A DNA stretch of 64,000 nt, taken from assembly GCF_002836255.1 (NCBI RefSeq), contig NZ_PJAU01000056.1, positions 1 to 64,000 on the forward strand, given 5' to 3'. Shown one piece after another: positions 1 through 14,762 of this stretch (position 1 is the stretch's first letter; every line of letters begins with the position of its first letter). Both the position numbers and the translations under genes were made by a program. The stretch is from Colwellia sp. 75C3 (GTDB taxonomy: Bacteria > Pseudomonadota > Gammaproteobacteria > Enterobacterales > Alteromonadaceae). A model generated the notes under the pieces. The model worked only from the letters and a program-made list of their open reading frames with translations, did no database searches and was not told the DNA's origin.

Positions 1-35
1 TTATGTTTCCTTGTAGAGTTCGGAGTTAAATTCAT

Positions 36-443
36 TTGGCGTGTACTGAAACTTATTCAACCTTGCTAATATTTTCGGAGGATATTACTCCGGATGTAAT
101 CAATAAATCATTAGGCTTCTTTGCTCATGATATTTGGGTAAAAGATCCCGAACATAAATATAAGCATCGCAGAGAACGTAATATTTGGAAATGGACGACT
201 CAGGATTTATGTAAAACCACCGATAATATCGAACATCTAAATCTTATTCTTAAACAACTAGAGGGTAAAGAAAGTATTCTTGAGGCTCTAAGGAATAAAG
301 GTTGTGAAACTAAGATTACAAATTTCTGGGATTCTACTGGACAAGGTGGACCATCCTTAACAGTTGAGTTAATGCGTAGACTTTCAGTATTAGGTTTGGA
401 TATACTTGGGGATATGTATTTCGATGATGAATCGGAAACATAA
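36..443 (+). CDS. DUF4279-like cassette protein
   Basis: A 135-residue soluble protein. The pattern (an early TLLIFSEDITPDVI segment, a WKWTTQDL segment near residue 51, an alternating helix region and a C-terminal LGLDILGDMYFDDE strand) resembles DUF4279 proteins, which are common in integrons and have no established function. No signal peptide or membrane segment is seen. A TTG start at 36 is chosen: an in-frame stop lies at 27-29 and a GGAG motif at 22-25 is suitably placed; ATT at 30 is a less likely alternative. The stop codon touches the first bases of the following attC, the normal compact cassette layout. Family assignment is by pattern recall only. Confidence 0.72.
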   Translation: MACTETYSTLLIFSEDITPDVINKSLGFFAHDIWVKDPEHKYKHRRERNIWKWTTQDLCKTTDNIEHLNLILKQLEGKESILEALRNKGCETKITNFWDSTGQGGPSLTVELMRRLSVLGLDILGDMYFDDESET

Positions 444-533
444 CAAGCTAATTAATAAGGACAAAAAACAGTTGACTGTTTTCGTTCCTCAACATTTTAG
501 TCAATAATTTTTTGCCCATTATTAGGGCGTTAG
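441..533 (+). repeat. attC site 1
   Basis: Begins TAACAAGC, has a left arm ACAGTTGACTG, a right arm TAGTCAATAATT and ends GGGCGTTAG. The two arms are complementary, giving the folded single strand recognised by integron integrases. Its first 60 bases match attC at 3131 at all but one position. Confidence 0.88.
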
Positions 534-551
534 CTGCTTTAGGAAATCGTT

Positions 552-1103
552 GTGATATTCTCCAAAATAACATCCGCAAAAGTAATTAGAGATAATATTG
601 CTGATGCACCTAAATCAGGAGGTGTTTACAAGCACTTTATCAATAAGGAAGGTTTAAAATACCTAAGCGGTGTTGACCCTACAGAGCAAGAAACAGCTGA
701 TGATGGAAGTACTGTATACCTCTTATATATTGGGTTAGCCAAGGATATACAATATCGGCTTAAGTGGCATTTAGGGATAGTTAATGTATCTCATTCGTGC
801 ATTGTTCATGGTACCTTATCTACGTTAAGGTTGAGCTATATGTCTAACCATGAAAATATCAACTGTTTATCAGAGCAAGAAAAGCTGAATGAGTTTTTAA
901 ATAAATATGTATACATGAGTTATTATGAAACTCCTGATTTTAAGTCGATTGAAAGTAGCCTCATAAGTAGTCACGACTTACCTTTGAATATAAAAGACAA
1001 TAAGCATTCATTTGTTCAAACAAACAAAGCTAGAAGAAAAGAAATGAAAGCTGCATATAAGCAGCTAACAAGCACTTCAAACGGAACAAAAACAGTTGGT
1101 TAG
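552..1103 (+). CDS. GIY-YIG domain protein (putative nuclease)
   Basis: 183 residues. Visible GIY-YIG elements: SGGVY near residue 22, YIG at 59-61, an arginine at about 69 and a histidine at about 73 in the R-x-x-W-H context, a downstream glutamate in SIESSLI, and a PLN-x-x-x-N segment near residue 144-150. This matches the order of motifs in GIY-YIG catalytic domains that cut DNA or RNA. No separate DNA-binding domain is obvious. The GTG start at 552 follows GGAAA. The last dozen codons lie inside the attC, so the recombination site encodes the tail. The substrate is unknown; it could be a defence or mobile-element enzyme, but that is inference. Confidence 0.78.
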   Translation: MIFSKITSAKVIRDNIADAPKSGGVYKHFINKEGLKYLSGVDPTEQETADDGSTVYLLYIGLAKDIQYRLKWHLGIVNVSHSCIVHGTLSTLRLSYMSNHENINCLSEQEKLNEFLNKYVYMSYYETPDFKSIESSLISSHDLPLNIKDNKHSFVQTNKARRKEMKAAYKQLTSTSNGTKTVG

Positions 1104-1160
1104 GTTCCGCTGCGCTTCACATTTTAACCAACAATTTTTGTCCGCTTAAGTGGGCGTTAT
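1066..1160 (+). repeat. attC site 2
   Basis: Begins TAACAAGCACTTCAAACGG, left arm AACAGTTGGTTA, right arm TAACCAACAATT, ends GGGCGTTAT. The arms are perfectly complementary over the core. The stop codon of the GIY-YIG gene lies inside it. Confidence 0.9.
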
Positions 1161-1187
1161 ATGCCCAAACGGAGTTCGTAGCATACT

Positions 1188-1607
1188 ATGGAGTTAACTA
1201 AACCTTTACCGCCGCAAGATGATGATATCGAAGCTTTAAGGACAGGCCTTACAACATTTAATGAGTCTTTTACTGGAACCGTATTCAGGGAGAAAGTTTC
1301 GTCCTTTATAAAAGATGACTCAGGTAAAATTGTTGGTGGTGTTCTAGGAGAAATAAATTGGAACTGGATGTATATTCAAGGCATCTGGATTGATGAAAGC
1401 ATCCGTAATGATGGTTGGGGACTTAAACTCCTATCTCAAATGGAAGAATATGCTTTATCCAAAACAACCACTAACATTCGGTTAGAAACAACGACGTTTC
1501 AGGCGTTAGGCTTTTATGTAAAAGCTGGTTATTCAGTTTTTGGTGAATTGGCTAATATGCCAGATGGACATACCTGTTACTTTCTACAGAAGCAACTGGG
1601 CATATAA
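1188..1607 (+). CDS. GNAT-family N-acetyltransferase
   Basis: 139 residues with the GNAT layout: a central strand GGVLGEINWNWMYIQGIWIDES (about residues 49-70), then the acetyl-CoA loop area R-N-D-G-W-G-L-K-L-L near 72-81, and a C-terminal ALGFYVKAGYSVFGEL segment typical of motif B. The usual R/Q-x-x-G-x-G/A loop is recognisable as RNDGWG. The acyl acceptor is unknown. The ATG start at 1188 follows a cassette leader of about 27 bp after attC 2 containing GGAG. Family is secure, substrate is not. Confidence 0.86.
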   Translation: MELTKPLPPQDDDIEALRTGLTTFNESFTGTVFREKVSSFIKDDSGKIVGGVLGEINWNWMYIQGIWIDESIRNDGWGLKLLSQMEEYALSKTTTNIRLETTTFQALGFYVKAGYSVFGELANMPDGHTCYFLQKQLGI

Positions 1608-1698
1608 CAAGCGTTTCAATCAGGACAAATAACAGTTGGTTTTGCTCCTGCGTCGCTTATTTTAACCAACTAATATTTGCCCATTATTTGGGCGTTAT
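1605..1698 (+). repeat. attC site 3
   Basis: Begins TAACAAGCG, left arm ACAGTTGGTT, right arm AACCAACTAA, ends GGGCGTTAT. Its middle part is almost the same as attC at 4535. Confidence 0.9.
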
Positions 1699-1718
1699 GT
1701 GTTTAGAAGAGTTAGTCG

Positions 1719-2186
1719 ATGTATCGAGATTTATTAAAAACAATAGTCCTATTATTTTTTCTTTCAGGCTGCGCTGAAAGAGTCATCGATATTAGTGATA
1801 AAGAAGGGAAAATTGTAGGTGGTTGTAATGCTGGTTTTGATTGGCATTTCTATGGCCTAGAAGATTCTATTGATTATGTGTTATATGAATGCGCAAAAGA
1901 TTCAATTGCTAAAGGTTACACAATATCAGATGAAAGATTGCTCACTATTGACTTTACACTACCAGCTCCTCCAAAAGGTCAGTCGTGGAATAAAAAGTTA
2001 GCGATGAGCCAATTTCATAGCGGTAAAATTACGGAAAGAAAACTAGGTTATATTCTTGCGGCAACAGAATTTCAATACATCAGAGTTATATGGGCAGCTG
2101 AAGGTGACTTGGCTAATGGAAAGATAACCGAAGCTGAGTTTAATGAAATTGACAAAACTGCCAAACTAAAATGGCTTGGTGAATAA
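1719..2186 (+). CDS. Cassette lipoprotein of unknown function
   Basis: 155 residues. A short basic N terminus and hydrophobic core are followed by a lipobox LSGC with the acylated cysteine at residue 18, so it should be an exported lipoprotein. The rest is soluble, with no recognised domain; the C-terminal half is helical and lysine/glutamate rich. ATG start at 1719. The protein family is not recognised. Confidence 0.8.
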   Translation: MYRDLLKTIVLLFFLSGCAERVIDISDKEGKIVGGCNAGFDWHFYGLEDSIDYVLYECAKDSIAKGYTISDERLLTIDFTLPAPPKGQSWNKKLAMSQFHSGKITERKLGYILAATEFQYIRVIWAAEGDLANGKITEAEFNEIDKTAKLKWLGE

Positions 2187-2191
2187 AACAC

Positions 2192-2284
2192 TATAAGTTA
2201 CTCAAACGGACGCGAAACAGCTTGCTAGCGCTCGTTTCTCGCACATTTTAGCAAACTATTTCGCGCCGCTTAGTAAGGCGTTAG
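2192..2284 (+). repeat. attC site 4 (variant left end)
   Basis: The left box is degenerate (TATAAGT), followed by CTCAAACGGACGCG, a left arm AACAGCTTGCTAGC, a right arm TTAGCAAACTATTT and a right end AGGCGTTAG. The arms still pair. Confidence 0.8.
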
Positions 2285-2291
2285 GTGTTTC

Positions 2292-2546
2292 GTGAGTGTA
2301 TCGATAAATCATTGTCCAATCTGCGGTTTTAAAGCTGATGAAAGTTATACATCGGTTTTAGAATTACGCTGTTCATATGATATTTGTGATTGTTGTGGCT
2401 GTGAGTATGGACATGATGATGATCTTAAGTTTTATGCTGATTGGGTAAAAGACGGATGCGTTTGGTTTGAGGCTAAAGCACAACCACAAGGTTGGACATT
2501 AGACGATCAAGTTAGAAACCAAATAAGACCTTGGCCACCTAAATAA
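2292..2546 (+). CDS. Small cysteine-rich (CPCC-like) putative zinc-binding protein
   Basis: 84 residues with CPIC near the N terminus (residues 8-11) and a second CDCCGC cluster near 33-38, followed by YGHDDD and a W-rich tail. Two cysteine pairs of this spacing suggest a small metal-binding ribbon; the YGxDD and WV-x-x-G features resemble the CPCC-type cysteine-rich family. No enzymatic motif is seen. The GTG start at 2292 lies eight bases after the attC end with only a weak upstream AGG. Function unknown. Confidence 0.7.
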   Translation: MSVSINHCPICGFKADESYTSVLELRCSYDICDCCGCEYGHDDDLKFYADWVKDGCVWFEAKAQPQGWTLDDQVRNQIRPWPPK

Positions 2547-2551
2547 ACACC

Positions 2552-2736
2552 TAACAAGGGTTTTCAAGTCGGACAAATTACAGTTGAATTTTTGTTCGTG
2601 CCTCACTTATTTTAGCCAACAGAAGCATGTTCCACCTAATATAATAGTAAGTTACTTTAGTCAATTAGGTGGCTTGGTCGAACTATAAGCAATTCAACGT
2701 GACACGCAACAGTTGGCCCGTTAATGTGGGCGTTAT
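2552..2736 (+). repeat. Composite, rearranged attC site 5
   Basis: A left attC half runs from TAACAAGG at 2552 to TTTTAGCCAAC ending at 2620 and stops abruptly. Unrelated sequence with a hairpin follows, then a second left-half fragment (AAGCAATTCAACGTGACACGC) and CAGTTGGC at about 2709-2717 joined directly to CCGTTAATGTGGGCGTTAT. The site reads as two attC sites fused by deletion. Confidence 0.65.
2632..2672. repeat. Nested inverted repeat inside composite attC 5
   Basis: CCACCTAAT at 2632-2640 pairs perfectly with ATTAGGTGG at 2664-2672; between them AGTAA-G-TTACT forms a second small palindrome. It is not part of the normal attC fold and no T tract follows, so a terminator role is doubtful. 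Confidence 0.6.
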
Positions 2737-2780
2737 ATCGCTTTTCAGAAAGTTGCACTCACTTAGGCATAAATTGAACA

Positions 2781-3119
2781 ATGGAATGTAATCACATGGA
2801 TAACGATCAGAAGCTATCAAAACTATTTAAAATTTTCTTTCCATCACTATTTATAATCAGCGTTATCTTTTATCAATGTTATCGTTACAGTATTGATACT
2901 ATCGAAATATATGTCGTCTCAAAAGATTCTGAGTGGGTTGAGCATTGCACTGAACATGGGTGTGTAGAAGCTCTTATGTTCACAATAAAAAGCAAAGATG
3001 AATCTTTTACAACGAGTGAAGGTATCTTTAATCAATTAGAACCTAAAAATAGTTACTTAGTGGGTTCTAAGGGTTGGAGTTCATTCGGAACAAATCGTAA
3101 GCTAACCCAAGTGTATTAG
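2781..3119 (+). CDS. Single-pass membrane-anchored cassette protein, unknown
   Basis: 112 residues with one hydrophobic segment near residues 17-33 (FKIFFPSLFIISVIFYQCY) and a polar C-terminal domain predicted outside the membrane. The domain contains two cysteines (HCTEHGC) that could form a disulfide. An alternative start is the second ATG at 2796, which removes five residues; the first has no clear ribosome binding site. Family not recognised. Confidence 0.7.
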   Translation: MECNHMDNDQKLSKLFKIFFPSLFIISVIFYQCYRYSIDTIEIYVVSKDSEWVEHCTEHGCVEALMFTIKSKDESFTTSEGIFNQLEPKNSYLVGSKGWSSFGTNRKLTQVY

Positions 3120-3130
3120 CTAAAGCGTTA

Positions 3131-3223
3131 TAACAAGCTAATTAATAAGGACAAAAAACAGTTGGCTGTTTTCGTTCCTCAACATTTTAGCAAACAATTT
3201 CCAGCCCCTTATTGGGGCGTTAT
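3131..3223 (+). repeat. attC site 6
   Basis: Begins TAACAAGC, left arm ACAGTTGGCTG, right half TTAGCAAACAATTTCC, ends GGGGCGTTAT. The left 60 bases match attC site 1 with one difference, pointing to a recent copy. Confidence 0.9.
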
Positions 3224-3390
3224 ATTTTTTGGTCGCGTCAGGTATATCTTACACACTTTCACATTTCCCCAACATTAATCGAACATTTTAAAATTTCAAC
3301 TCTAGTTATTATGCTCTAAGTTACTTAGCCAACAATTTTTAGCCGCTTAACAGGGGTGTTATATTTTTTAATCACAAAAAGGAAGGTAGA
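3224..3390 (+). other. Cassette remnant without a gene, with half attC
   Basis: No open reading frame of useful size exists on either strand between attC 6 and the next gene. From 3321 to 3362 only the right half of an attC is present (CTTAGCCAACAATTT ... GGGGTGTTAT), without its left half. The 95 bp before it is AT rich. This is a gene-less cassette or the residue of a deletion. A promoter role is possible but no convincing -35/-10 pair was found. Confidence 0.6.
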
Positions 3391-3966
3391 ATGCATAAAA
3401 TAATAAAAATAATGATGACAGGGATTGTTGCTATATATATTTCAGGTTGTTCTTCCAATACCTCAAAATATGGCGCATCATTTGAAAATATAGAAACACT
3501 TAAAAATTATAATGGTGTACAAGTTGCTGTTAAGCCATTTACATCAGTAAAGTCCGGACGAAGTGGAATAACTTGTAGAGGAGTAGGTTCAGTTGTAACT
3601 CCTAATAAAGAGTCTTTTGAAAGTTATATTCATAATGCATTCGTTTCAGAGCTAAAGGTTGCAGGAATATATAAAGAGCAATCTGAGATTACTTTAAATG
3701 CTCACTTTACCGAGATAGACTTCAATTCAAATGTTGGTAATGGAAAATGGATTTTTGAACTTACGGCATCATCAAATAATGATAAAACCCTACAAATATC
3801 GACCAGACATGAGTTTTCAACCAACTGGGTTGGCTCTACCGCCTGTCAGCAAATTGCTCAAGAATTTTCACCTGCTGTCCAGTTTTTAATTCGCGATTTA
3901 ATTACAAACCCTAAATTTAAAGAGTTAATTTCTCCTGTAAAAACAGAGTTGGTCACAAAAATATAA
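3391..3966 (+). CDS. Cassette lipoprotein of unknown function
   Basis: 191 residues. The N terminus has lysines, a hydrophobic core and lipobox ISGC with the modified cysteine at residue 20, so export and lipidation are expected. The mature part contains YNGVQVAVKPF and a later Q-x-FIRDL-like helix, giving a fold reminiscent of small periplasmic lipoproteins that begin with an LPP20-like or YajG-like strand; this is weak. The ATG at 3391 is well placed after AAAGGAAGG. The stop codon overlaps the next attC. Confidence 0.8.
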   Translation: MHKIIKIMMTGIVAIYISGCSSNTSKYGASFENIETLKNYNGVQVAVKPFTSVKSGRSGITCRGVGSVVTPNKESFESYIHNAFVSELKVAGIYKEQSEITLNAHFTEIDFNSNVGNGKWIFELTASSNNDKTLQISTRHEFSTNWVGSTACQQIAQEFSPAVQFLIRDLITNPKFKELISPVKTELVTKI

Positions 3967-4052
3967 CAAGCAAATTAACAGGACTAAAAACAGCAGGCTG
4001 TTCGCTTCGCTCCATTTTAGCCTACTATTTTAGCCCCTTATTTGGGCGTTAT
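3964..4052 (+). repeat. attC site 7
   Basis: Begins TAACAAGC, left arm ACAGCAGGCTG, right arm AGCCTACTATT, ends GGGCGTTATG. The arms carry matched changes relative to other sites (CAGGCTG with AGCCTA), so base pairing is kept. Confidence 0.88.
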
Positions 4053-4070
4053 GTGCAAAAGGAAAGTTGC

Positions 4071-4526
4071 GTGGATATAGCCAATGCCAAGTTACTATTT
4101 ATAGTTTTATTTGTTATCACAATTATATGTTGCTTGGTTTACTTAGTAGATTCTTCATTAAAAGGTACCAGTATCAAGAAACGACTACCTTTTAATACAA
4201 ATATTAATAGTGCTCGCTTTAAGAGAATTTTATTAATACATCTCAGCATTGTATTTTTAGTTTCATGTGTCGCGTTACTGTTTATGCTTCCCGCTTTATT
4301 ATTCGCTTATGCAGAAATACCTCAATGGTTAGAAGTATTCTTGATTTTTTTAAGTCCACTATATTCCACCTTAATGTGGCTGTTTCCTGAACAAATAAAT
4401 ATATTGGCAGGTATTTTTGCATTCAATTTATTAGACAGTGTTTTTACCGCATATATTATAGAATTAGTTATATCAAACACTTTACCGCTTAAAAATAAAG
4501 GTGATAATGGTAGCTTTAGTGCCTGA
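4071..4526 (+). CDS. Multi-pass membrane protein, unknown cassette
   Basis: About 151 residues with four probable membrane segments: one at the N terminus (LLFIVLFVITIICCLVYLV), two in the middle (LLIHLSIVFLVSCVALLFML and FLIFLSPLYSTLMWLF) and one near the C terminus. The GTG at 4071 is preferred: AAGGAAAG lies at 4059-4066, while the upstream in-frame GTG at 4053 sits at the attC end without a ribosome binding site. Family not recognised. Confidence 0.7.
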   Translation: MDIANAKLLFIVLFVITIICCLVYLVDSSLKGTSIKKRLPFNTNINSARFKRILLIHLSIVFLVSCVALLFMLPALLFAYAEIPQWLEVFLIFLSPLYSTLMWLFPEQINILAGIFAFNLLDSVFTAYIIELVISNTLPLKNKGDNGSFSA

Positions 4527-4534
4527 TTTGCACA

Positions 4535-4623
4535 TAACAATCAATCAGGACAAATAACAGTTGGTTTTGCTCCTGCGTCGCTTATTTTAACCAACAATTA
4601 TTTGCCTCTTAGTGAGGCGTTAT
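4535..4623 (+). repeat. attC site 8
   Basis: Begins TAACAATCAATCAGG, left arm ACAGTTGGTT, right arm AACCAACAATT, ends GAGGCGTTATG. It shares the loop segment TTTTGCTCCTGCGTCGCTTA with attC at 1605. Confidence 0.9.
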
Positions 4624-4660
4624 GTATTTTACCACTTTAGGTGTTTAAAAGGATTTATGG

Positions 4661-4897
4661 ATGTTCAAATTAATAGTTATTATTGTTTATTCTCTAGTAT
4701 TAGGCGGGTGTGCGTCGAGTTCTGATCTCTCAGAAATGTCTAAGAATAATGCTAAAGCTGGTCGTTACTATGAATCAATAGGACAGCCTCAAGCTGCGCA
4801 GAGAGAATATAAGGCAGCAGCTAAACATCAGAAACAATCTGAAGAAGGTGAAACCATTCTATTAGATATTTTATGGTCATTGCTTACGGGAAAATAA
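4661..4897 (+). CDS. Small lipoprotein with a helical repeat
   Basis: 78 residues with a signal sequence ending in lipobox LGGC (cysteine at residue 17). The mature part AKAGRYYESIGQPQAAQREYKAAAKHQ looks like a single tetratricopeptide-type helix pair. ATG at 4661, with AAAAGGA upstream at about 4647-4653. Probably an envelope-anchored adaptor; no partner is suggested by the context. Confidence 0.78.
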   Translation: MFKLIVIIVYSLVLGGCASSSDLSEMSKNNAKAGRYYESIGQPQAAQREYKAAAKHQKQSEEGETILLDILWSLLTGK

Positions 4898-4902
4898 ATA
4901 CA

Positions 4903-4994
4903 TAACAAGTAATCAACGTGACACGCAACAGTTGGCTGCGCTCATGTTTCGCTATCATAGCCAACTATTACTTAGCCTGTTATTTGGGCGTTAT
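4903..4994 (+). repeat. attC site 9
   Basis: Begins TAACAAGTAATCAACGTGAC, left arm AACAGTTGGCTG, right arm ATAGCCAACTATT, ends GGGCGTTATG. Confidence 0.9.
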
Positions 4995-5013
4995 GTCTCT
5001 CGGAGATTCTGTC

Positions 5014-5499
5014 ATGTCAATTAGTCCAATTAATGAAAACTCTTGGGATGGCATCGTAAAAATTCAGGAAGAGGCCTATACCGATATAGCTCCTGAAGAT
5101 GTAAAAGTTCTAAAAAGTAAATGGTATTCATCGCCACAAACCTGTGCCGTATTTACAGACCACAAAGGCAAAGTATTAGCTTACTTATTAGCACACCCAT
5201 GGGCGAGTGAAATCCCACCAAAGTTAAATGAAAAAATCCCTGTAATTAACAGCCCAATTTTATTTATTCATGATCTAGCATTAGCTATTGAAGGAAGAGG
5301 AAAAAACATAGGTAAAGAATTAGTGCAAAACCTAATTCATAATGCCAAAGCTAAAAGTTATGTAAAAATTTTATTAGTAGCTGTTCAAAACTCTACTGGA
5401 TTTTGGGCTAAGTTTGGTTTTATAAATATACCTAGTGAAGAAATTTGCTCAAATTATGGTGAAAACTCACAATTAATGGTGTTAGAGTTAGAGACATAA
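5014..5499 (+). CDS. GNAT-family N-acetyltransferase
   Basis: About 161 residues. GNAT features: a strand pair CAVFTDHKGKVLAYLLAHPW, a loop IEGRGKNIGKELVQNL holding the acetyl-CoA-binding R/G-x-x-I-G-K, and a C-terminal NSTGFWAKFGF. ATG 5014 is chosen because CGGAG at 5001-5005 is eight bases upstream. The longer frame opens inside attC 9 and is unlikely to be translated. The acceptor is unknown. The following attC is truncated, so this gene is effectively fused with the DUF805 gene in one unit. Confidence 0.85.
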   Translation: MSISPINENSWDGIVKIQEEAYTDIAPEDVKVLKSKWYSSPQTCAVFTDHKGKVLAYLLAHPWASEIPPKLNEKIPVINSPILFIHDLALAIEGRGKNIGKELVQNLIHNAKAKSYVKILLVAVQNSTGFWAKFGFINIPSEEICSNYGENSQLMVLELET

Positions 5500-5512
5500 C
5501 AAGCCAATAAGG
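5497..5512 (+). repeat. Truncated attC (left box only)
   Basis: Only TAACAAGCCAATAAGG is left after the GNAT stop; no right half exists before the next gene's ribosome binding site at about 5537. A deletion has joined two cassettes. Confidence 0.6.
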
Positions 5513-5549
5513 TTTTAAAAAGTTTATCAACAACAAGGAGAGTCCAACG

Positions 5550-5888
5550 ATGGATTATTTTATAGGCGCACTGAAAAAATATGCTGACTTTACTGGTCGA
5601 GCACGTAGGAAAGAGTACTGGATGTTCATGCTTATTTACCTGATTATCCAAGTCGTTTTATCAGTACTTGGTTTGAATCTGGTTCTTATGGTATTGGGTC
5701 TTGGGCTTCTAGTTCCAAGCCTTAGTATTGGAGCTAGAAGGTTGCATGATACAGGCCGCTCTGGATGGTGGCAGTTAATTTATTTAGTTCCACTTATCGG
5801 AATAATAGTCATGATTGTCTTTTTAGCTCAAGATAGCCATGATGAAAATGACTATGGCGTTAATCCTAAAGCTGGTGTTCCCGCATAA
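5550..5888 (+). CDS. DUF805 family membrane protein
   Basis: 112 residues matching the DUF805 pattern: an N-terminal ALKKYADFTGRARRKEYWMF, two or three membrane helices, the signature RRLHDTGRSGWW near residues 64-75, another helix and a tail ending NDYGVNP. DUF805 proteins are common small inner-membrane proteins of unknown function. ATG at 5550 with AAGGAGAG upstream. It shares a transposable unit with the preceding GNAT gene because the attC between them is deleted. Confidence 0.92.
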   Translation: MDYFIGALKKYADFTGRARRKEYWMFMLIYLIIQVVLSVLGLNLVLMVLGLGLLVPSLSIGARRLHDTGRSGWWQLIYLVPLIGIIVMIVFLAQDSHDENDYGVNPKAGVPA

Positions 5889-5892
5889 AATC

Positions 5893-5994
5893 TAACAAAG
5901 CACTCAAACGGGGGAAGATCACAAAAAACAGTTGGCTGTTTCACTCCGTTCACAATTTTAGCCAACAATTAAAAGCCTCTTAATGGGGTGTTAT
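5893..5994 (+). repeat. attC site 10
   Basis: Begins TAACAAAGCACTCAAACGGG, left arm AACAGTTGGCTG, right arm TAGCCAACAATT, ends GGGGTGTTAT (GT for GC in the right box). Slightly longer than its neighbours because of a GGGGAAGATC insertion on the left side. Confidence 0.87.
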
Positions 5995-6023
5995 GTATAA
6001 AACTTAAAGCGTAAGGAGTACGT

Positions 6024-6488: not shown

Positions 6489-6490
6489 AC

Positions 6491-6598: not shown

Positions 6599-6681
6599 AT
6601 GCCTACGCTTATTCAGCATTTAAACCTTTTAGCCACTTATAGCGTCTAAGTAGTGATTTTAATTATTTACAAAGGAAAACA

Positions 6682-8084: not shown

Positions 8085-8104
8085 AATATAACGAACGGAA
8101 TCAT

Positions 8105-8578: not shown

Positions 8579-8691
8579 CAAGAACATTAAACGGAAAAAA
8601 TACAGTTGGCTGTATTCACATGGATAGGTGTTTTATCAAATATTTAAGCTTATTTTAACCAACAATTATTTGCCCCTTAGTGGGGCGTTAT
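8576..8691 (+). repeat. attC site 13 (long)
   Basis: Begins TAACAAGAACATTAAACGG, left arm ACAGTTGGCTG, an extended loop, right arm TTAACCAACAATT and right end GGGGCGTTAT. About 116 bp, the longest complete site. Confidence 0.87.
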
Positions 8692-8711
8692 AACCCTTAA
8701 ACGAAGATATT

Positions 8712-9617
8712 ATGAACCTCAAAGATATATTTTTAGCATTATTGGTGGTTTTTATTTGGGGGATTAACTTTTCTTTTATCAAAATTGGTTTAGAAGAATT
8801 ACCACCGATACTTTTTTCTGCAATACGTTTTTCAATTGTAGCGATACCTGCTGTTTTCTTTATTCCATTTCCTAAAACTTCAATTTGGAATGTTATTGGA
8901 GTTGGCTTCTTTTTAGGTGTATTAAAATTTGGTTTGTTATTTGTTGCAATGAAATCAGATGCCTCTGCTGGTCTATCTTCACTTATACTTCAAGCTCAGG
9001 TGTTTTTTACCATTGGTTTAAGTATTTTGTTTTTTAAAGAATTAATCACTAAAACACAATTATTAGGAGTAAGTGTTGCAGCAATTGGTTTTAGCTTTTT
9101 CTTTTTTAATGCAGGTGGAAATATCACAACAACTGGTTTGGGGCTTATTTTACTTGCAGCTTTGTTCTGGGCAATCTCAAATATGATTATGAAGCAAATA
9201 AAACAAGTTAATCTGTTACATTTTATGGTTTGGGTTTGCTTAATACCTCCTATCCCCCTTCTAGGCTTATCGTTTATCATGGAAACTAATGATCCTTTAG
9301 GTGCCATTCTTTCAACATCCATAAAAACATGGGGAGCACTCACTTATGTGAGCTATATCTCGACATTGATTGCCTTTTCAATTTGGGGTTTTTTACTAAA
9401 AAGTTATTCTGCCGCTTTTGTAACGCCATTTGCACTATTAATTCCTGTTGTAGGTATAGTGACATCAAGTTTACTTTTAAATGAAACTTTAAACCCTCAT
9501 GAAATAACTGGTACTATTTTAATTATGCTGGGATTAGTGTTTTGTGTTGCTGGAAATAAGTTATTTAACCTTCTGTTCAATCAGGGTTATATCAAGAGAA
9601 TTAACAAGGACACGTAA
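8712..9617 (+). CDS. EamA/DMT-family permease
   Basis: 301 residues with about ten membrane helices in two EamA repeats (residues about 6-135 and 145-285). The start LLVVFIWGINFSFIKIGLEELPP is the typical EamA opening, and the second repeat ends in LNPHEITGTILIMLGL, the usual E-x-x-x-x-x-G-x-x-x-I-x-x-G pattern. It exports or imports small metabolites; substrate unknown. ATG at 8712. The C-terminal residues after YIKRINKD are encoded by the attC, since the stop lies in it. Confidence 0.92.
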   Translation: MNLKDIFLALLVVFIWGINFSFIKIGLEELPPILFSAIRFSIVAIPAVFFIPFPKTSIWNVIGVGFFLGVLKFGLLFVAMKSDASAGLSSLILQAQVFFTIGLSILFFKELITKTQLLGVSVAAIGFSFFFFNAGGNITTTGLGLILLAALFWAISNMIMKQIKQVNLLHFMVWVCLIPPIPLLGLSFIMETNDPLGAILSTSIKTWGALTYVSYISTLIAFSIWGFLLKSYSAAFVTPFALLIPVVGIVTSSLLLNETLNPHEITGTILIMLGLVFCVAGNKLFNLLFNQGYIKRINKDT

Positions 9618-9684
9618 CAGTTGGCTACGTCTCGCTTCTCTACACATTTTAGCAAACGATTATCAGCCCCTTAAATGGGCGTTA
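9602..9684 (+). repeat. attC site 14
   Basis: Begins TAACAAGGACACG, left arm AACAGTTGGCTA, right arm TTAGCAAACGATT, ends GGGCGTTAT. The right half resembles that of attC 6. Confidence 0.87.
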
Positions 9685-9710
9685 TAAGTTTTATCAAGGA
9701 TGGTGTTCAA

Positions 9711-10019
9711 TTGAAAAATTTACTTATTCTCATAGTTATTTGTGGCGCGGCATGGCAGTTCTATTTTAAAAATAGCTCTCTAGTCGAAACAACTCACAAA
9801 AAGGCGACATCTGAATTCTCAAATAGTGACGCCATGAAAACATTAGCTCAAGCTAAAGAAATAGCTAAGCCTAAAGTTACCTATAAATGCGATGGCAGAC
9901 AACATTGTTCTCAAATGAATTCATATGAAGAAGCAAAGTATTTTATCCGTTACTGTCCTAATACTGAAATGGACGGTGATGGAGATGGTATTCCGTGTGA
10001 AAGACAGTTTAATAGATAA
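9711..10019 (+). CDS. Membrane-anchored excalibur-domain protein
   Basis: About 102 residues. An N-terminal membrane helix (LLILIVICGAAWQFYF) is followed by a linker and a C-terminal excalibur domain: YKCDGRQHCSQM, then SYEEAKYFIRYCPN, and finally DGDGDGIPCE, the calcium-loop-like D-x-D-x-D-G signature with its four cysteines. TTG 9711 is chosen: AAGGA is at 9697-9701, and the longer frame opens inside attC 14. Excalibur domains occur in extracellular proteins and nuclease-associated proteins; here it stands alone, so its role is open. Confidence 0.85.
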   Translation: MKNLLILIVICGAAWQFYFKNSSLVETTHKKATSEFSNSDAMKTLAQAKEIAKPKVTYKCDGRQHCSQMNSYEEAKYFIRYCPNTEMDGDGDGIPCERQFNR

Positions 10020-10035
10020 AGTGCTTTCAAACTTC

Positions 10036-10092
10036 TAACAAGGCATTCAACATTTTAACCAACAATATTTTGCCGTTTAATGTGGCGTTATG
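10036..10092 (+). repeat. attC site 15 (short, left arm deleted)
   Basis: Begins TAACAAGGCATTCAAC, then directly the right half TTTTAACCAACAATATTTTGCCG and the end TGGCGTTATG. The CAGTTGG left arm and loop are missing; only 57 bp. Confidence 0.75.
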
Positions 10093-10109
10093 CCTCAAGG
10101 AGAGTTCAT

Positions 10110-10724
10110 TTGTCATCTGCAAGTTTGTTAGCACTTTTTGGAGCTATGTTAATCGTTGCTCTTGTACCTGGCCCTGCTGTATTTGCTGTAATTGCGCGTA
10201 CATTTTCATCTGGATTTAGCCGCGGTTTAATGATGATCGTAGGTATAACATTAGGTGACTTTATATTTATACTTCTTGCTTTGTTTGGCCTGTCTATAAT
10301 TTCTGAAATTATGGGAACTACTTTTCTTATAATTAAATACGCTAGTGCTGCATACCTTATTTGGTTAGGTATTAATTTAATAAAATCTAAAGCAACCTCT
10401 GAAGATATTAAAGCATCAAAAGAGTCTTCTTTAGTTGCAAGCTTAGCTACAGGGTTAATGATAAATTTAGGAAATCCAAAAGCAATTGTATTTTATATTG
10501 GTTTATTTCCTGCGTTTATAGATGTTAACCAAGTGGTTACAGTAGATGTACTGGCAATAATGGGAATTGCGACACTCGCTTTTGGTAGTGTCAATATTTG
10601 CTACGCGCTATTAGCTTTAAGAGCTAAGAGGGTGCTAAAGAGCCCTAATGCATTATCATTAATTAATAAAACAGCAGGCACCATTATGGTGTCGACTGGG
10701 GCGGTAGTCGCAATTAAGGCATAA
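10110..10724 (+). CDS. LysE/RhtB-family exporter
   Basis: 204 residues with six membrane helices. The N terminus LLALFGAMLIVALVPGPAVFAVIART carries the P-G-P motif of LysE/RhtB amino-acid exporters; the INLGNPKAIVFYIGLFPAF helix is typical of the C-terminal half. TTG 10110 is preferred because AAGGAGAG lies at 10097-10104; the extra upstream frame opens in the attC. The substrate may be an amino acid or derivative but cannot be told. The stop lies in the next attC. Confidence 0.92.
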   Translation: MSSASLLALFGAMLIVALVPGPAVFAVIARTFSSGFSRGLMMIVGITLGDFIFILLALFGLSIISEIMGTTFLIIKYASAAYLIWLGINLIKSKATSEDIKASKESSLVASLATGLMINLGNPKAIVFYIGLFPAFIDVNQVVTVDVLAIMGIATLAFGSVNICYALLALRAKRVLKSPNALSLINKTAGTIMVSTGAVVAIKA

Positions 10725-10814
10725 CAAGCGGTAAAACAAGGACAAAAATCGGTTGATTCTTGTCCTGCGCCGCTTGTTTTAACCAAGTGTTTTTCCCTCA
10801 TAGTGGGGCGTTAT
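10722..10814 (+). repeat. attC site 16
   Basis: Begins TAACAAGCGG, left arm AATCGGTTGATTC, right arm TTTTAACCAAGTG, ends GGGGCGTTAT. Loop GTCCTGCGCCGCTTG is close to that of attC 3 and 8. Confidence 0.88.
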
Positions 10815-10831
10815 AACTTACGGAGAGTATC

Positions 10832-11230
10832 GTGATAAACAAAGGCAGTTGCTTGTGTAATCAAGTCCAATATGAAATCGATGGTGAATTTGAAGATGTA
10901 CTAAATTGCCATTGTGGTATGTGTCGTAAATTACATGCGTCGGCATTCAGAACCAGAGCAAAAATTAAGACTGGAAGCTGGAAAACTATTCAGGGTGAAA
11001 AATTTATTAAGTTTTATGAATCATCTCCTGGTGAGCATAAAGGCTTTTGCTCTGAGTGTGGTTCTAGTTTATTTACTAAATTCGATTCTCATCCAAATAT
11101 ATTAGGTTTTCCATTCGGTACATTAGATACAGACCCTAAAGTAAAACCCACTCGTCATGTCTACGTTGGCAGTAAAGCTGCTTGGCATGAAATTACCGAT
11201 AACTTACCTCAACAACAAGAGTTTGAATAA
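10832..11230 (+). CDS. GFA-family (CENP-V/GFA domain) protein
   Basis: 132 residues with the zinc-ligand pattern of the GFA family: GSCLCNQVQYEI at the N terminus (C-x-C), NCHCGMCRKLHASAF near residues 24-40 (C-x-C-x-x-C), and FCSECGSSLF near 70-79 (C-x-x-C). The family is named for a glutathione-dependent formaldehyde-activating enzyme, but most members are uncharacterised. GTG start at 10832 with ACGGAGAG at 10820-10827. Another GFA-family gene lies at 14805 at the edge of the array. Confidence 0.9.
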   Translation: MINKGSCLCNQVQYEIDGEFEDVLNCHCGMCRKLHASAFRTRAKIKTGSWKTIQGEKFIKFYESSPGEHKGFCSECGSSLFTKFDSHPNILGFPFGTLDTDPKVKPTRHVYVGSKAAWHEITDNLPQQQEFE

Positions 11231-11239
11231 AGTAAGTTT

Positions 11240-11305
11240 TAACAAGTTGCTTAAACGGACAAACAACAGTTTTTTCGTGTTCCGCGCATGTTAGCAAAGC
11301 GTTAT
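11240..11305 (+). repeat. attC site 17 (short)
   Basis: Begins TAACAAGTTGCTTAAACGG, left arm AACAGTTTTTTCG, then GTTAGCAAAGCGTTAT: the right arm and the bases before the right box are deleted. 66 bp. Confidence 0.75.
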
Positions 11306-11319
11306 ATTTTGGAGTTTAA

Positions 11320-11742
11320 TTGAAGTTTTTTATTATTATCTGCGGTATCGCATCTTCAATTTTTTTACATAGTAATTCAATATTAATAGGCAGCCGTTCA
11401 TGGATGGAATTATTGCTTACGTTGGTTAATTTCAAAAATATGAATGAATGGGCTACAAATATAATTGCTAATGTTTGGTTACTTTTTCCTAAACTATTAA
11501 CTTTTACGTTAATCTGTTCATTTTTTGTCAATTATTTCGGGCATGCAAGGTACTATATTTATTCTGTACTAATAACTTCGTTTATTAGTTTTGTAGTAAT
11601 TCCTAACACTCCAATATTGGAGCATTTATTTTTGCTGCCTATGCAAGAAATTCGTTTTGTAAATATATTCATCAGTTTATTTATGTTTTTAATTTCTTTA
11701 CAATTATTCATGTATTTCACAAAAAATATAACAAGAAAATAA
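11320..11742 (+). CDS. Multi-pass membrane protein, unknown cassette
   Basis: 140 residues with about four hydrophobic segments (residues 2-20, 50-68, 78-95 and 113-133). TTG start at 11320 with TTGGAG at 11309-11314. The stop codon falls inside the following attC. No recognised family; isoleucine/phenylalanine rich, as for the other AT-rich cassettes. Confidence 0.68.
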   Translation: MKFFIIICGIASSIFLHSNSILIGSRSWMELLLTLVNFKNMNEWATNIIANVWLLFPKLLTFTLICSFFVNYFGHARYYIYSVLITSFISFVVIPNTPILEHLFLLPMQEIRFVNIFISLFMFLISLQLFMYFTKNITRK

Positions 11743-11827
11743 ACAAGGACACGTAAAAGTTGGTTACTTGTCGCTTCGCTATACAATTTTAGCCAACCAT
11801 TACTTAGCCTATTATTTATGGGTAACA
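11729..11827 (+). repeat. attC site 18 (decayed right box)
   Basis: Begins TAACAAGAAAATAAACAAGG, left arm AAAGTTGGTTA, right arm TTTAGCCAACCATT, but the right end reads ATGGGTAAC instead of GCGTTAT. Probably inactive. Confidence 0.68.
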
Positions 11828-11852
11828 CCAATTTTACAGGGATGTACGTTGT

Positions 11853-12143
11853 ATGAATTTCAAACAAATATTATTTAGTACTTTAATTTCTTTGTCTATT
11901 ACGGCGTGTGCATATCAACCATCAATTGCAACTAAACAGCCTTATTGTAAACGGGAAGCTTTTACCAATAAATTAACGTTAAAAGTAACCGAAATGGAAG
12001 ACATGGACATGTGTGATGATGGCGATTTTGGAGGATGTGTTGTGGCATTGGCACTGATAGGGCCTCTAAGCTTTATTGTATCAGGTAGTGTAGTGCTAAT
12101 AGGCAATACTTTGCATTGGTCAGAATATCAATTGAGTTGTTAA
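11853..12143 (+). CDS. Cysteine-rich cassette lipoprotein
   Basis: 96 residues. The N terminus ILFSTLISLSITAC ends in a lipobox with the lipidated cysteine at residue 19. The mature part has further cysteines, an acidic MEDMDMCDDGDFGGC stretch, then a hydrophobic segment VVALALIGPLSFIVSGSVVLIG (about residues 63-84) that could be a glycine-zipper-like membrane helix. No known family. ATG at 11853. Confidence 0.75.
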   Translation: MNFKQILFSTLISLSITACAYQPSIATKQPYCKREAFTNKLTLKVTEMEDMDMCDDGDFGGCVVALALIGPLSFIVSGSVVLIGNTLHWSEYQLSC

Positions 12144-12148
12144 AACAT

Positions 12149-12266
12149 AGTAAGAAAATACACAAGGATTCGTACCTGTTGTCTAGGTTTCGCTTCTCTG
12201 TTCAATGTTCAATGTTCAATGTTCAATGTTAGCGAACCATTACTTCACCAATTATATGGCCGTTAT
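12149..12266 (+). repeat. attC site 19 (decayed, with tandem repeat)
   Basis: Left box AGTAAGAAAATACACAAGG and right end TGGCCGTTAT are both degenerate. Left arm CCTGTTGTCTAGG, right half TTAGCGAACCATTACTTC. A four-copy 7 bp repeat sits in the loop. Confidence 0.65.
12199..12230 (+). repeat. Four tandem copies of TGTTCAA in an attC loop
   Basis: TGTTCAA occurs four times head to tail at 12199-12226, followed by a partial TGTT. The array sits where the attC loop would be and lengthens it. Confidence 0.95.
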
Positions 12267-12286
12267 ATCAAAGAGAATTTAGTTTT

Positions 12287-12862
12287 ATGCCTGAAGCCAA
12301 CCCAGAAAAAACAATGACTTTTGCATCGCCGGTAGATCTCGGTCGATGGCTCAAGGTAAATCACGCCATTGAAAGTGAATTGTGGGTAAAGATATTCAAG
12401 AAGAAAACTGGAATTGCTAGCGTGACTTGGGATGATGTCGTCGTTGAAATGTTGTGCTGGGGCTGGATTGATGGCATCAAGAAGTCCATCGATGACCAAG
12501 CCTATCTCCAGCGGGTCACACCAAGAAAAGCACGAAGCAACTGGTCTAAAAGGAACACAGAGCATGCGGAACGTTTGATAAGTGAGAACCGGATGATGGA
12601 ATCAGGGCTAGTACATATACGTGCGGCAAAAGCTGACGGTCGTTGGGAAAGCGCCTATGTGGTAAGTGAAATGGAAGTGCCCGAGGATTTTCTAGCTTCA
12701 CTGGAGAGTAAACCGAATGTTAAAGCGTTTTTTGAAACGCTCACTAAATCGAGTCGTTATATTATCGCGTACGGATTGATAAGTGCGAAGAAGCCCGAAA
12801 CTAGACTTAGGCGCTTTACAAAATTCATGGATATGCTTATTAACGAAGAAAAGCCTAAGTAA
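12287..12862 (+). CDS. YdeI/OmpD-associated-family protein
   Basis: 191 residues. The sequence matches the YdeI/OmpD-associated family: LGRWLKVNHAIESELWVKIFKK near the N terminus, the conserved WDDVVVEMLCWGWIDGIKKSID block (residues about 47-68), then QRVTPRKARSNWSKRN, and a C-terminal helical domain. These proteins occur widely in bacteria, sometimes annotated as bacteriocin-protection proteins; the activity is not established. The ATG at 12287 follows an AGAG. Codon use appears a little richer in G/C than neighbouring cassettes, compatible with recent acquisition. Confidence 0.88.
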   Translation: MPEANPEKTMTFASPVDLGRWLKVNHAIESELWVKIFKKKTGIASVTWDDVVVEMLCWGWIDGIKKSIDDQAYLQRVTPRKARSNWSKRNTEHAERLISENRMMESGLVHIRAAKADGRWESAYVVSEMEVPEDFLASLESKPNVKAFFETLTKSSRYIIAYGLISAKKPETRLRRFTKFMDMLINEEKPK

Positions 12863-12879
12863 GTATCTTGGTCAAACTA

Positions 12880-12968
12880 TTAGACGTTTAAAAGAACAAA
12901 AAAGTTAACTTTTCTTTCTTCTTTACTCATTTTACCTCACCATATTAGGCCTCTTAATGAGGCGTTAT
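12880..12968 (+). repeat. attC site 20 (degenerate)
   Basis: Only the right part is clear: TTTTACCTCACCATATTAGGCCTC ... TGAGGCGTTATG. Left box and left arm (AAAAAGTTAACTTTTC) are poorly conserved but still self-complementary. Confidence 0.6.
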
Positions 12969-12982
12969 GCCCCCTAGAAATT

Positions 12983-13594
12983 ATGAACATTAGCATGAAA
13001 AATAAATTATTAAATGGGCATCATCTGGCTCTTAATGACCAAATTAAGTTGTTGTCAGAATTTGTAATGACAATCGATGGGATCCCCCAAGTACTCGATG
13101 AAATTTGTAAACTGCCTGATGCATGGCTTGGTGCTGGAACAATATTTCAGAATGTATGGAATACAATGCATGGCTATGAGCTTAATACCCATATAAAGGA
13201 TATTGACATCTTATACTGGGATGATAAAGATTTAAGCTGGGAGTCAGAAAATAACTACATTACTTCACTCACTGAAGCCTTTCCAAATATTAACATTCCT
13301 TTTGATGTAAAAAATATTGCTAGAATACATTTATGGTATGAAGAGCGCTTTGGTATTCCTAAAACTGAATACTTTAGTGTTCAAGAATCTATTTCTACTT
13401 GGCCCGTTATTGGGGCTTGTATGGCTATGCGTATTAAGGATGGGAAATTGGAGTTTATTGCTCCACATGGGTTTCAAGACATGTTCTCTCTTCTCGTTAG
13501 GCCGAATAAAGTATTAGTAAACAAAAGCATTTATGAAGACAAAGCAACTAAGTGGAAAGAGCAGTGGCCAATGTTGTCAGTCGAAAATTGGTGA
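12983..13594 (+). CDS. Nucleotidyltransferase-like protein (COG3575 type)
   Basis: 203 residues. The segment AWLGAGTIFQNVWNTMHGYE followed by KDIDILYWDD (residues about 48-81) corresponds to the G-[G/A]-G and D-x-D pattern of the nucleotidyltransferase-like family formerly DUF925, in which an aspartate pair would bind metal. The tail has FIAPHGFQDMFSLLVRPN, also typical. Start at ATG 12983, or the second ATG at 12995. Whether it is enzymatically active is unknown. Confidence 0.82.
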   Translation: MNISMKNKLLNGHHLALNDQIKLLSEFVMTIDGIPQVLDEICKLPDAWLGAGTIFQNVWNTMHGYELNTHIKDIDILYWDDKDLSWESENNYITSLTEAFPNINIPFDVKNIARIHLWYEERFGIPKTEYFSVQESISTWPVIGACMAMRIKDGKLEFIAPHGFQDMFSLLVRPNKVLVNKSIYEDKATKWKEQWPMLSVENW

Positions 13595-13599
13595 TCGTA

Positions 13600-13734
13600 C
13601 ACAACGAGTAATCAATAAGGATGTTTATACATGATGAAACGATTACAATAACTTCAAACGGAACCAAACAATTGATTAGGCTCCGTTTCGCTATACTTTT
13701 AACCAACTATTGGGTCCACTTAAGTGGCCATTAT
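13600..13734 (+). repeat. Decayed attC sites 21
   Basis: A left-half fragment CAACGAGTAATCAATAAGGATG starts near 13602. A second more complete but degenerate site starts near 13643 (ACAATAACTTCAAACGG), with left arm ACAATTGATTAGG, right arm TTTAACCAACTATTGGG and right box GGCCATTAT instead of GGCGTTAT. Confidence 0.6.
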
Positions 13735-13754
13735 TTATTCGAGAGGTTTAAGAT

Positions 13755-14054
13755 TTGATACCCTATTTATTAGCCGGATTATCCGTATTAATTGCGGGTG
13801 GCGTTCACTGGAAGCTACCTAATTCATTTTGGAAAGCATCGATTAGTTCGACGCTAGCAATCGTTGTTTTATCACTTTTATTTATATTTGTGTTTCAGTC
13901 TAATTATTTAGGCTTAGATGATGAGAGCAGCCAACAGGGTAACATTGGCGAAGCTGTTTTATTTGTATCATCACTTGTTTCCTTCTTTGGTTTATTAGTG
14001 TCTTTACTGGTTGGTTATTTCTTAAAAGCAATTAAGCCACCAAACGTTAATTAG
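13755..14054 (+). CDS. Three-helix membrane protein, unknown
   Basis: 99 residues with probable membrane helices at about 2-17, 32-50 and 67-91 and an acidic loop LGLDDESSQQGN between the second and third. TTG start at 13755 with GAGAGG at 13741-13746. No recognised family. It is followed by an attC remnant with only GGCGTTAAG at 14066-14074 preserved. Confidence 0.68.
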   Translation: MIPYLLAGLSVLIAGGVHWKLPNSFWKASISSTLAIVVLSLLFIFVFQSNYLGLDDESSQQGNIGEAVLFVSSLVSFFGLLVSLLVGYFLKAIKPPNVN

Positions 14055-14076
14055 TCTGTGATTTTGGCGTTAAGCG
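14040..14076 (+). repeat. attC remnant
   Basis: AACGTTAATTAG near 14043 and GGCGTTAAG at 14066-14074 resemble the outer attC boxes; the hairpin arms are missing. Confidence 0.4.
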
Positions 14077-14118
14077 TACAGAATTATTTTCACCGATTTC
14101 AAGTGTTAAGTTATTATT

Positions 14119-14736
14119 ATGAAAAGTAAACGAATACATAGAATCATTGGATTACTGCTAGTTTTACCGGTGATTGGCTGGACTTTTACAGGAATAGTAT
14201 TCTTTATTAAACCTGGTTATCAAGCTGCATATGATCAGTTAGCAGTAAAAACGTATCCTTTAGAAAAGTCATTTATCATCCCCGAATCAAAAGAATGGAC
14301 AGAGGTCAGGCTTTTAAAAACAATACTTGGTTATCATTTACTTGTTAAAACAAAAAACGGCTTCGAGCATCTCGATCCTATTTCATTGCAATCAAAAGAA
14401 ATACCGGCAGGTGTCGCGCTTAACTCGCTTTTCAATGATTCATTTTTAAATAAATCAGACCGATATGGGCAAGTTATTTCTAGGAATAATTTTAAAGTTA
14501 TAACAAGTAAAGGCATTGAGGTATCGCTTAATTGGGAGCGATTAACACTGCGGCAAAAAGGTGAAGATACAAGGTTGATAAATACACTATATAAGATACA
14601 TTACTTACAATGGACTCCTTATAAAGGTATTAATCAGTATATGGGTATCATTGGGTTAATTCTGTTAATGACATTAACGCTTTTTGGTTTGAAAATATAT
14701 ATATCTGGTAGGCATAAAAATACGCCCATCAAGTAG
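14119..14736 (+). CDS. PepSY-like membrane protein
   Basis: 205 residues. An N-terminal RIHRIIGLLLVLPVIGWTFTGIVFF helix and a C-terminal KIHYLQWTPYKGINQYMGIIGLILLMTLTLFGLKIY helix flank a periplasmic domain of about 120 residues. This is the layout of PepSY-associated transmembrane proteins, where the first helix carries H-x-x-x-G and the last H-x-x-x-W-x-x-x-G. Function in the family is varied (iron-siderophore reduction, protease inhibition) and not decidable here. ATG at 14119. The following attC is only a fragment. Confidence 0.78.
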   Translation: MKSKRIHRIIGLLLVLPVIGWTFTGIVFFIKPGYQAAYDQLAVKTYPLEKSFIIPESKEWTEVRLLKTILGYHLLVKTKNGFEHLDPISLQSKEIPAGVALNSLFNDSFLNKSDRYGQVISRNNFKVITSKGIEVSLNWERLTLRQKGEDTRLINTLYKIHYLQWTPYKGINQYMGIIGLILLMTLTLFGLKIYISGRHKNTPIK

Positions 14737-14762
14737 GACTAAAACAGTTGGATGTTTCACAC
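14728..14762 (+). repeat. attC remnant (left half)
   Basis: CAAGTAGGACTAAAACAGTTGG followed by ATGTTTCAC resembles the left half of attC 7; no right half follows. Last clear attC trace. Confidence 0.5.

Follow-up and report, generated by a model that had tools for sequence, protein, structure and literature searches.

What kind of element occupies the left end of contig NZ_PJAU01000056.1 of Colwellia sp. 75C3, and where is its integrase gene? The window analysed here is the 64,000-nucleotide stretch at the start of this contig (positions 1 to 64,000; contig C3 of the 60 contigs of the 5.4-Mb genome), and a preliminary description had seen in its first 14.7 kb an integron cassette array read in one direction. 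We confirm that positions 1-14,758 are such a one-way array, and the earlier guess of a Colwellia source was right as well. Very probably the array is the part of a sedentary chromosomal Colwellia integron that lies farthest from the integrase gene (intI), towards aroC; intI itself would lie leftwards on other contigs.

Two other Colwellia genomes (G015 and G023, the latter C. piezophila) supplied the 19 attC sites for a profile that is thus independent of the window; it gave 23 matches at E ≤ 0.01 in the 64 kb, all on the plus strand and located from 438 to 14,758. The remaining 49 kb of the window contained no match at this threshold, and each of ten dinucleotide-preserving shuffles gave none. 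A covariance model of 30 sites, partly circular because 11 of these come from the window, located 21 plus-strand matches at E ≤ 0.01, none of them outside 435-13,739; it also gave four minus-strand matches, each overlying a plus-strand one. Rfam at its gathering thresholds found nothing in the window. When folded as bottom-strand DNA, 11 of the 23 sites reached z ≤ -2.5 against 100 mononucleotide shuffles; those that fold poorly are mostly truncated, decayed or interrupted, and the site at 5890-5997 combines a good sequence score with a folding no better than that of shuffles. Top-strand folding energies are about as low as those of the bottom strand, so that folding shows no strand preference. 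These features, and the degeneracy of several sites, would fit repeats that arose by chance or that belong to an unrelated intergenic family, a reading to which we give almost no credence in view of the 23 sites on a single strand, their restriction to the array, the empty shuffles and the complementarity found at the predicted cassette boundaries.

Capture proceeds through a circular form of the cassette, so that the first bases of a cassette are expected to pair with its own R'' end. In the 17 attC sites with both ends readable (six degenerate sites were dropped), a match of 9-12 nt between own 5′ end and own R'' was found in seven (permutation p about 1e-5). Mismatched pairs, used as the control, reached 8 nt or more in 2.2% of cases with a maximum of 10 nt, and R'' matched the adjoining next cassette over 7 nt at most. 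At least these seven, then, are cassettes that recombined at those boundaries.

Besides a one-way array of attC-bounded cassettes, which the window provides, a sedentary chromosomal integron should possess an intI gene with an intact frame and an attI site between the two. The earlier remark that no integrase is in view is true within the window but reflects the assembly, because the window begins where contig C3 begins. In a genome-wide search for integron integrases a single match, at 382 bits on the 7.9-kb contig C21, exceeded the family cut-off; the four others, elsewhere, are weak. The gene on C21 reads as frameshifted: profile positions 1-280 are encoded in one frame and 274-314 in another, the two overlapping near position 274-280, and the open frame from ATG (293 amino acids) ends before the final part of the domain, where the catalytic tyrosine lies. 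Approximately 30 bp before the start of intI, an insertion sequence (IS) with a DDE_Tnp_IS1595 transposase piece interrupts a LexA-box-like sequence; in the relative 12G3 this sequence is uninterrupted and reads CTGTATATACATACAG, which we presume to be the LexA box upstream of intI. The end of C21 and the start of contig C16 are the two sides of one insertion of this IS1595-type element (L007 7524-7913 and L047 1-56; it is also seen at the right end of L048), and the junctions share a 10-bp duplication. Beyond the IS, C16 continues with an attI-type region, the core of which was recognised by eye as CATATTAAACTG joined to TTATATG, and then with an array. Since C21 and C16 share one IS insertion, the integrase gene, attI and the first array can be ordered as C21-IS-C16. 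At the right end of C16 the terminal repeat follows a similar sequence, CTGTACATACATA, so that the IS may prefer such boxes. With an intI frame broken before its C-terminal end and an IS in the LexA-box-like promoter sequence, the integron platform of Colwellia sp. 75C3 now looks disabled, and integrase activity has probably been lost. Contig C6 (L008 8399-10340) carries a broken integrase-like gene, with weak TIGR02249 matches, beside a gene for a 399-amino-acid transposase-like protein.

The link between this platform and the window comes from relatives. On C21 a DUF885-like gene (named by eye) adjoins intI on its left, and intI stands beside this gene in five of the 13 relatives holding a ≥74% orthologue of it. 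In C. piezophila a single contig contains the DUF885-like gene, intI, 52 attC sites and then the genes found at 16598, 17313 and 20388 of the window and aroC. Four window cassettes (those with genes at 1188, 5550, 9675 and 12287) recur in that array in the same order, with 80-95% amino acid identity. In an integron of this layout, circular cassettes would have been captured one by one at the attI beside intI, and the older ones would have been pushed towards aroC, where their attC sites would decay, their genes would become fixed and the distal cassettes would probably be silent.

Integrase-free cassette clusters are common, and attG insertion, loss of intI and rearrangement are candidate origins for them; a study of 2024 by Loot et al. 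is reportedly concerned with attG. The window array might likewise be an independent cluster of attC sites lacking integron-integrases (CALIN), seeded here and not part of the intI locus. As cut, the window does hold an attC cluster with no intI nearby, but it begins at a contig end. Separate clusters exist in this genome, where the attC matches at E ≤ 0.01 number at least 101 and are spread over 10 contigs (all genome-wide attC counts are lower bounds, 150 of several thousand candidates being scored per genome). In the closed genome G044 (5,373,180 bp; probably C. psychrerythraea 34H, as we assume) the two integron flanks are about 1 Mb apart with attC near each, that is, an aroC-side array and a DUF885-side attC region. 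An independent origin is hard to reconcile with the gene order of C. piezophila from the DUF885-like gene to aroC and with its four cassettes in the same order, and the dispersed attI-like element described below (attI-B) is absent from the window array, its best window match being 15 bits at 31.3 kb. We consider an independent CALIN unlikely. The simplest reading of the sequence comparisons is that one old integron was split by rearrangement and that the window would be its aroC-side end. The loci L066 and L028 of G044 have the integron flanks apart, as if a rearrangement had broken inside the array.

Several observations weigh against this placement of the window at the distal end of the intI locus. 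Own pairing fails in 10 of the 17 attC sites; just four window open reading frames (ORFs) are common to the C. piezophila array; no contig joins C16 or C21 to C3, and none of 16 contig end pairs overlaps; the genome contains the further attC clusters already mentioned; and the frameshift in intI could be a sequencing error. Moreover, the C16 array is succeeded here by a block that is pfa-like by eye; in G044 such a block stands before the aroC-side array, and in G023 none is seen at this place, so that the locus has been rearranged. This block, which has the look of a polyunsaturated fatty acid synthase cluster, spans L047 16.7 kb to L048 19 kb.

Integrons are widespread in the genus, an integron-integrase match at 1e-20 being present in 38 of 39 same-genus genomes and above the cut-off in 31. 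At E ≤ 0.001, attC sites occur at many loci in four other genomes (at least 78 in G044, 54 in G047, 43 in G010 and 15 in G009). Three places with isolated cassettes in the genome of strain 75C3 were considered as proof of an empty site and rejected. At 189.8 kb of contig C23 relatives lack the insert, but the order of gene and promoter differs, and no clean single insertion results. At 226.7 kb of C23 both flanks lie on one contig in eight of 12 relatives (G001, G002, G004, G005, G015, G019, G023 and G044), approximately 0.1-0.4 kb apart in G001, G002, G019, G023 and G044 versus 1.5 kb here, and further apart in the other three; this comparison is one of flank distances only. The flank on C33 has strong matches on one side only.

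The array has no natural left end in the window. The R'' at 434-444 matches bases 1-10 together with a G assumed before base 1, from which we infer that a crossover lies directly before base 1, the first base of a cassette, and that the array, as had been proposed, extended further left. A contig that starts exactly on a crossover base could be a hint of mixed cassette neighbours in the sequenced culture. Inside attC sites lie four more ends of contigs (C55 left, C9 left, C55 right and C11 left; L042, L046, L045 and L049), which indicates that these repeats broke the assembly; the attC half with which C55 left starts is nearly identical to that of C9 left.

Towards the right, attC score declines with distance (Spearman -0.64, p 0.001, n 23), and beyond 14,760 a probable decayed tail of the array, on the plus strand, occupies 14761-16560. 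Its ORFs encode a GFA protein (14805-15167), a NUDIX protein (15192-15593), an acetyltransferase-like protein by eye (15633-16109) and a product of no family (16146-16547). No attC was recognised among these ORFs (14,805-16,547), and they are absent from this locus in the relatives compared; the stretch 15,597-16,076 has 81% nucleotide identity to sequence in the intI-side (DUF885-side) attC region of G044. The right boundary (16598-17858, plus strand) is formed by two chromosomal genes, one at 16598-16804 and the other, MntP-like by eye, at 17313-17858. The former has the same position in G023, G044 and G002, with no attC there in G002, and the latter in G023 and G044; the sequence between them (16822-17289) occurs in none of the relatives compared. 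The right edge of the former array would therefore lie near 16.5 kb.

About 25 cassette units, all on the plus strand, make up the 14.76 kb, close to the 24 or so first described, although with the decayed cassettes the right limit comes later, at about 16.5 kb. Cassette 1 (1-529) carries a DUF4279 gene (PF14106; ORF 36-443) and attC 438-536 (71 bits), its own 5′/R'' match being 11 nt with one assumed G included. Cassette 2 (530-1156; ORF 552-1103) encodes a GIY_YIG_2 protein (PF20815, 1.8e-17) and has attC 1063-1163 with an own match of 11 nt, and cassette 3 (1157-1694; ORF 1188-1607) a GNAT acetyltransferase (PF00583), with attC 1601-1701, an own match of 12 nt and a counterpart of 95% amino acid identity in the C. 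piezophila array. The product of cassette 4 (1695-2280; ORF 1719-2186) is lipoprotein-like and of no family; own pairing fails at its attC 2192-2288 (59 bits; 3 nt). Cassette 5 (2281-2732; ORF 2292-2546) encodes a Cys-rich protein of no family and has a rearranged attC, part of it at 2548-2621; at 2640-2700 an attC is broken up by a stretch with the inverted repeat CCACCTAAT...ATTAGGTGG. Cassette 6 (2733-3219; ORF 2781-3119, no family) has attC 3129-3225 (79 bits) with an own match of just 6 nt, and it is followed by remnant 7 (3220-3358), which is without an ORF and retains a partial attC (3325-3362, 22 bits).

Own matches of 11, 12 and 11 nt are found in the next three units: cassette 8 (3359-4048; ORF 3391-3966, lipoprotein-like, no family above cut-off; attC 3961-4055), cassette 9 (4049-4619; ORF 4053-4526, a membrane protein by eye; attC 4532-4625, 80 bits) and cassette 10 (4620-4990; ORF 4661-4897, small and lipoprotein-like, with NCBIfam matches below cut-off only; attC 4900-4996). 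Cassette 11 (4991-5990) contains two ORFs, for a GNAT protein (5014-5499, PF00583) and a DUF805 protein (5550-5888, PF05656; 84% amino acid identity to a counterpart in the C. piezophila array), and its attC is at about 5890-5997. Cassette 12 (5991-6594; ORF 6024-6488, no family; attC 6488-6601) precedes cassette 13 (6595-7523; attC 7435-7530), the ORF of which (6682-7428) is a DJ-1/PfpI gene (PF01965, 28.3 bits against a cut-off of 26.6). In cassette 14 (7524-7845; ORF 7603-7827, no family) attC has shrunk to fused ends (model E 0.4 only), whereas cassette 15 (7846-8687; ORFs 7929-8084 and 8105-8578, no family) has attC 8573-8691 (59 bits).

The remaining units comprise cassette 16 (8688-9681; ORF 8712-9617, EamA transporter, PF00892, 6e-34; attC 9588-9688), cassette 17 (9682-10087; ORF ending at 10019, Excalibur domain, PF05901; partial attC 10043-10093; counterpart in the C. 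piezophila array at 84% amino acid identity), cassette 18 (10088-10810; ORF ending at 10724, LysE-type exporter, PF01810; attC 10719-10815, own match 9 nt) and cassette 19 (10811-11301; ORF 10832-11230, GFA family, PF04828; truncated attC 11240-11304, 25 bits). Cassettes 20 and 21 (11302-12262) have ORFs 11320-11742 and 11853-12143 and attC sites at 11726-11818 (51 bits, R' not recognisable) and 12146-12267 (19 bits); at 12202-12232 a short tandem repeat of CAATGTT-like units lies inside the attC loop. Cassette 22 (12263-12964; ORF 12287-12862, YdeI/OmdA family, PF13376; attC 12882-12969) has counterparts in the C. piezophila array (80% amino acid identity) and in G044 (82% nucleotide identity), and cassette 23 (12965-13730; ORF 12983-13594, NTP_transf_6, PF06042, 5e-50; attC 13642-13735) has one in the aroC-side array of G044 (76% amino acid identity). 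In cassettes 24-25 (13731-14760; ORFs 13755-14054 and 14119-14736, PepSY_TM below cut-off) attC is lost or partial (14720-14758, 16 bits).

The preliminary description had regarded the array as the most likely source of new systems in the window, an expectation that the cargo does not bear out. Twelve of the 26 ORFs of 1-14,760 match Pfam above curated cut-offs (DUF4279, GIY_YIG_2, two GNAT, DUF805, DJ-1/PfpI, EamA, Excalibur, LysE, GFA, OmdA and NTP_transf_6). None of the 20 cassette proteins scanned matches a PADLOC defence model, and NCBIfam gave nothing above cut-off for the 10 scanned. Searches with two unnamed proteins returned 14 homologues for cassette 8 and 124 for cassette 4, the named ones chiefly belonging to marine gammaproteobacteria, with Pseudoalteromonas, Colwellia and Thalassotalea among them. 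By profile scans and these two homologue searches, the cargo appears typical, and no new system is apparent among the cassettes.

Outside the window, a noncoding element of about 310 bp, attI-B, heads many of the attC clusters that lie away from intI, and the first cassette directly follows it. Copies are found in the genome of strain 75C3 at L050 8606-8915, L052 3700-4011, L053 2755-2958 and L056 1670-1977, and in G044 in L057-L075. It has a GTGCGC head, for which a dif/Xer reading was considered by eye; its internal repeats read TTACTGAGAAGTCTCAGTAA, and its commonest end is ...GGACATTACTGAGAAGTCTCCATAATAAGCTG followed by TTA. The core AATAA(A/G)NTG followed by TTA is present upstream of intI in 13 of 14 intI loci printed, the exception being a Shewanella locus. 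Eleven of 19 further intI loci have the same or a looser form, and four of the rest, in a third integrase group, have CTATTAAGCTG before TTA by eye. Of 18 listed copies of the element 15 were aligned, three being dropped as cut or unclear. Ten of the 15 contain exactly AATAAGCTGTT, the other five differing at one or more bases. The 5′ end of the first cassette, taken from the end of the element, matches its own R'' over 8-12 nt in ten of the 15 copies and fails to do so in five; 3 of 210 mismatched pairs reach this. The pairing indicates that in those ten copies cassettes recombined exactly at the end of the element. An initial reading of this repeat as an unrelated miniature inverted-repeat transposable element near attC clusters was abandoned in view of the end that matches the attI core, and the element is probably not itself a cassette, as its left end is not a regular G|TT.

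From model position 62-64 onward, the sequence of the element adjoins an intact intI in L138, L140 and L126 and a broken one in L141 and L149. The three intact genes group in a single clade, with a support of 0.995, and are separate from the home integrase; none of the other named intI loci fetched (L077-L115) showed attI-B. The first 62 bp (GTGCGCATT...) are frequent in copies away from intI (8 of 20 unbiased copies) and occur in none of the five copies beside intI. This shared head favours the spread of an intI-free form over repeated loss of intI, although such a spread is suggestive only, the profile having been built from six intI-free copies. With 150 candidates scored per genome, the end of attI-B matched at E ≤ 0.001 in all 14 genomes searched, at least 21 times in G044, 14 in G015, 11 in G023 and 10 here, and from at least one to at least 10 times in the rest. 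Of 40 copies, 29 have an attC on the same strand within 2.5 kb downstream, three have any opposite-strand attC within 2.5 kb, and 11 have no cassette in reach. A downstream attC accompanies 11 of 20 copies fetched without regard to attC and 18 of 20 in loci fetched because of attC; by genome, attC is headed by five of the nine copies examined here (of at least 10) and by 14 of the 16 examined in G044 (of at least 21). Pairing could be scored in five of the unbiased 20 copies and extends over 9-12 nt in three of these.

We read the dispersed elements as probable free-standing attI platforms. Each would combine the conserved 62-bp head with the attI of a second integrase lineage and what is probably the promoter region of that lineage, and one integrase acting in trans could give rise to cassette arrays at many chromosomal places. 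To the wider proposal, that an integron landing site was separated from its integrase, multiplied and served in trans, with the window array as the first integrase's old home, the sequence comparisons lead us to assign an even chance. A protein of 221-243 amino acids is encoded upstream of the attI-like element at L061 4283-4948, L051 10363-11028 and L074 10049-10780, in two genomes; Pfam gave no match for the L061 copy.

The Colwellia integron shares with sedentary chromosomal integrons of the Vibrio superintegron type an intI with a LexA-box-like promoter, an attI, a long one-way attC array, mostly unnamed cargo and decay away from intI. It differs in that attC clusters lie on several contigs, intI reads as broken and an IS is inserted in the promoter. 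CALINs occur at several chromosomal loci in Xanthomonas (PMC12444791), and Shewanella has CALINs plus single orphan cassettes (PMC9229058), so that all three share cassette clusters at more than one chromosomal location apart from intI; unlike those clusters, as far as these texts describe them, many Colwellia clusters outside the window start with a shared attI-like element, and the window array has none. In Shewanella prophage M16-3 an attI precedes both an integron and a CALIN (PMC9892861), and here too an attI heads an integrase-free cassette cluster; this is one prophage case with an attI identical to that of the neighbouring integron, whereas Colwellia has from at least one to at least 21 matches per genome in 14 genomes. 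Leading-strand orientation and integrase loss are discussed for the Vibrio cholerae integron in PMC11023631. In the literature searched, with most subscription journals outside it, no paper was found that deals with integrons of Colwellia as such or with attI copies scattered without an integrase.

The window array is genuine but of an ordinary kind, the large and decaying end of a chromosomal integron. With its gradient of decay and a platform that looks disabled, it is a further example of a natural chromosomal integron. Of greater importance than the window array are the dispersed attI-like elements, known from their sequences. A repeated, integrase-free attI with cassettes that start exactly at its end would add a further, testable answer to the question of how integrase-free cassette clusters arise: the acceptor site itself may spread.

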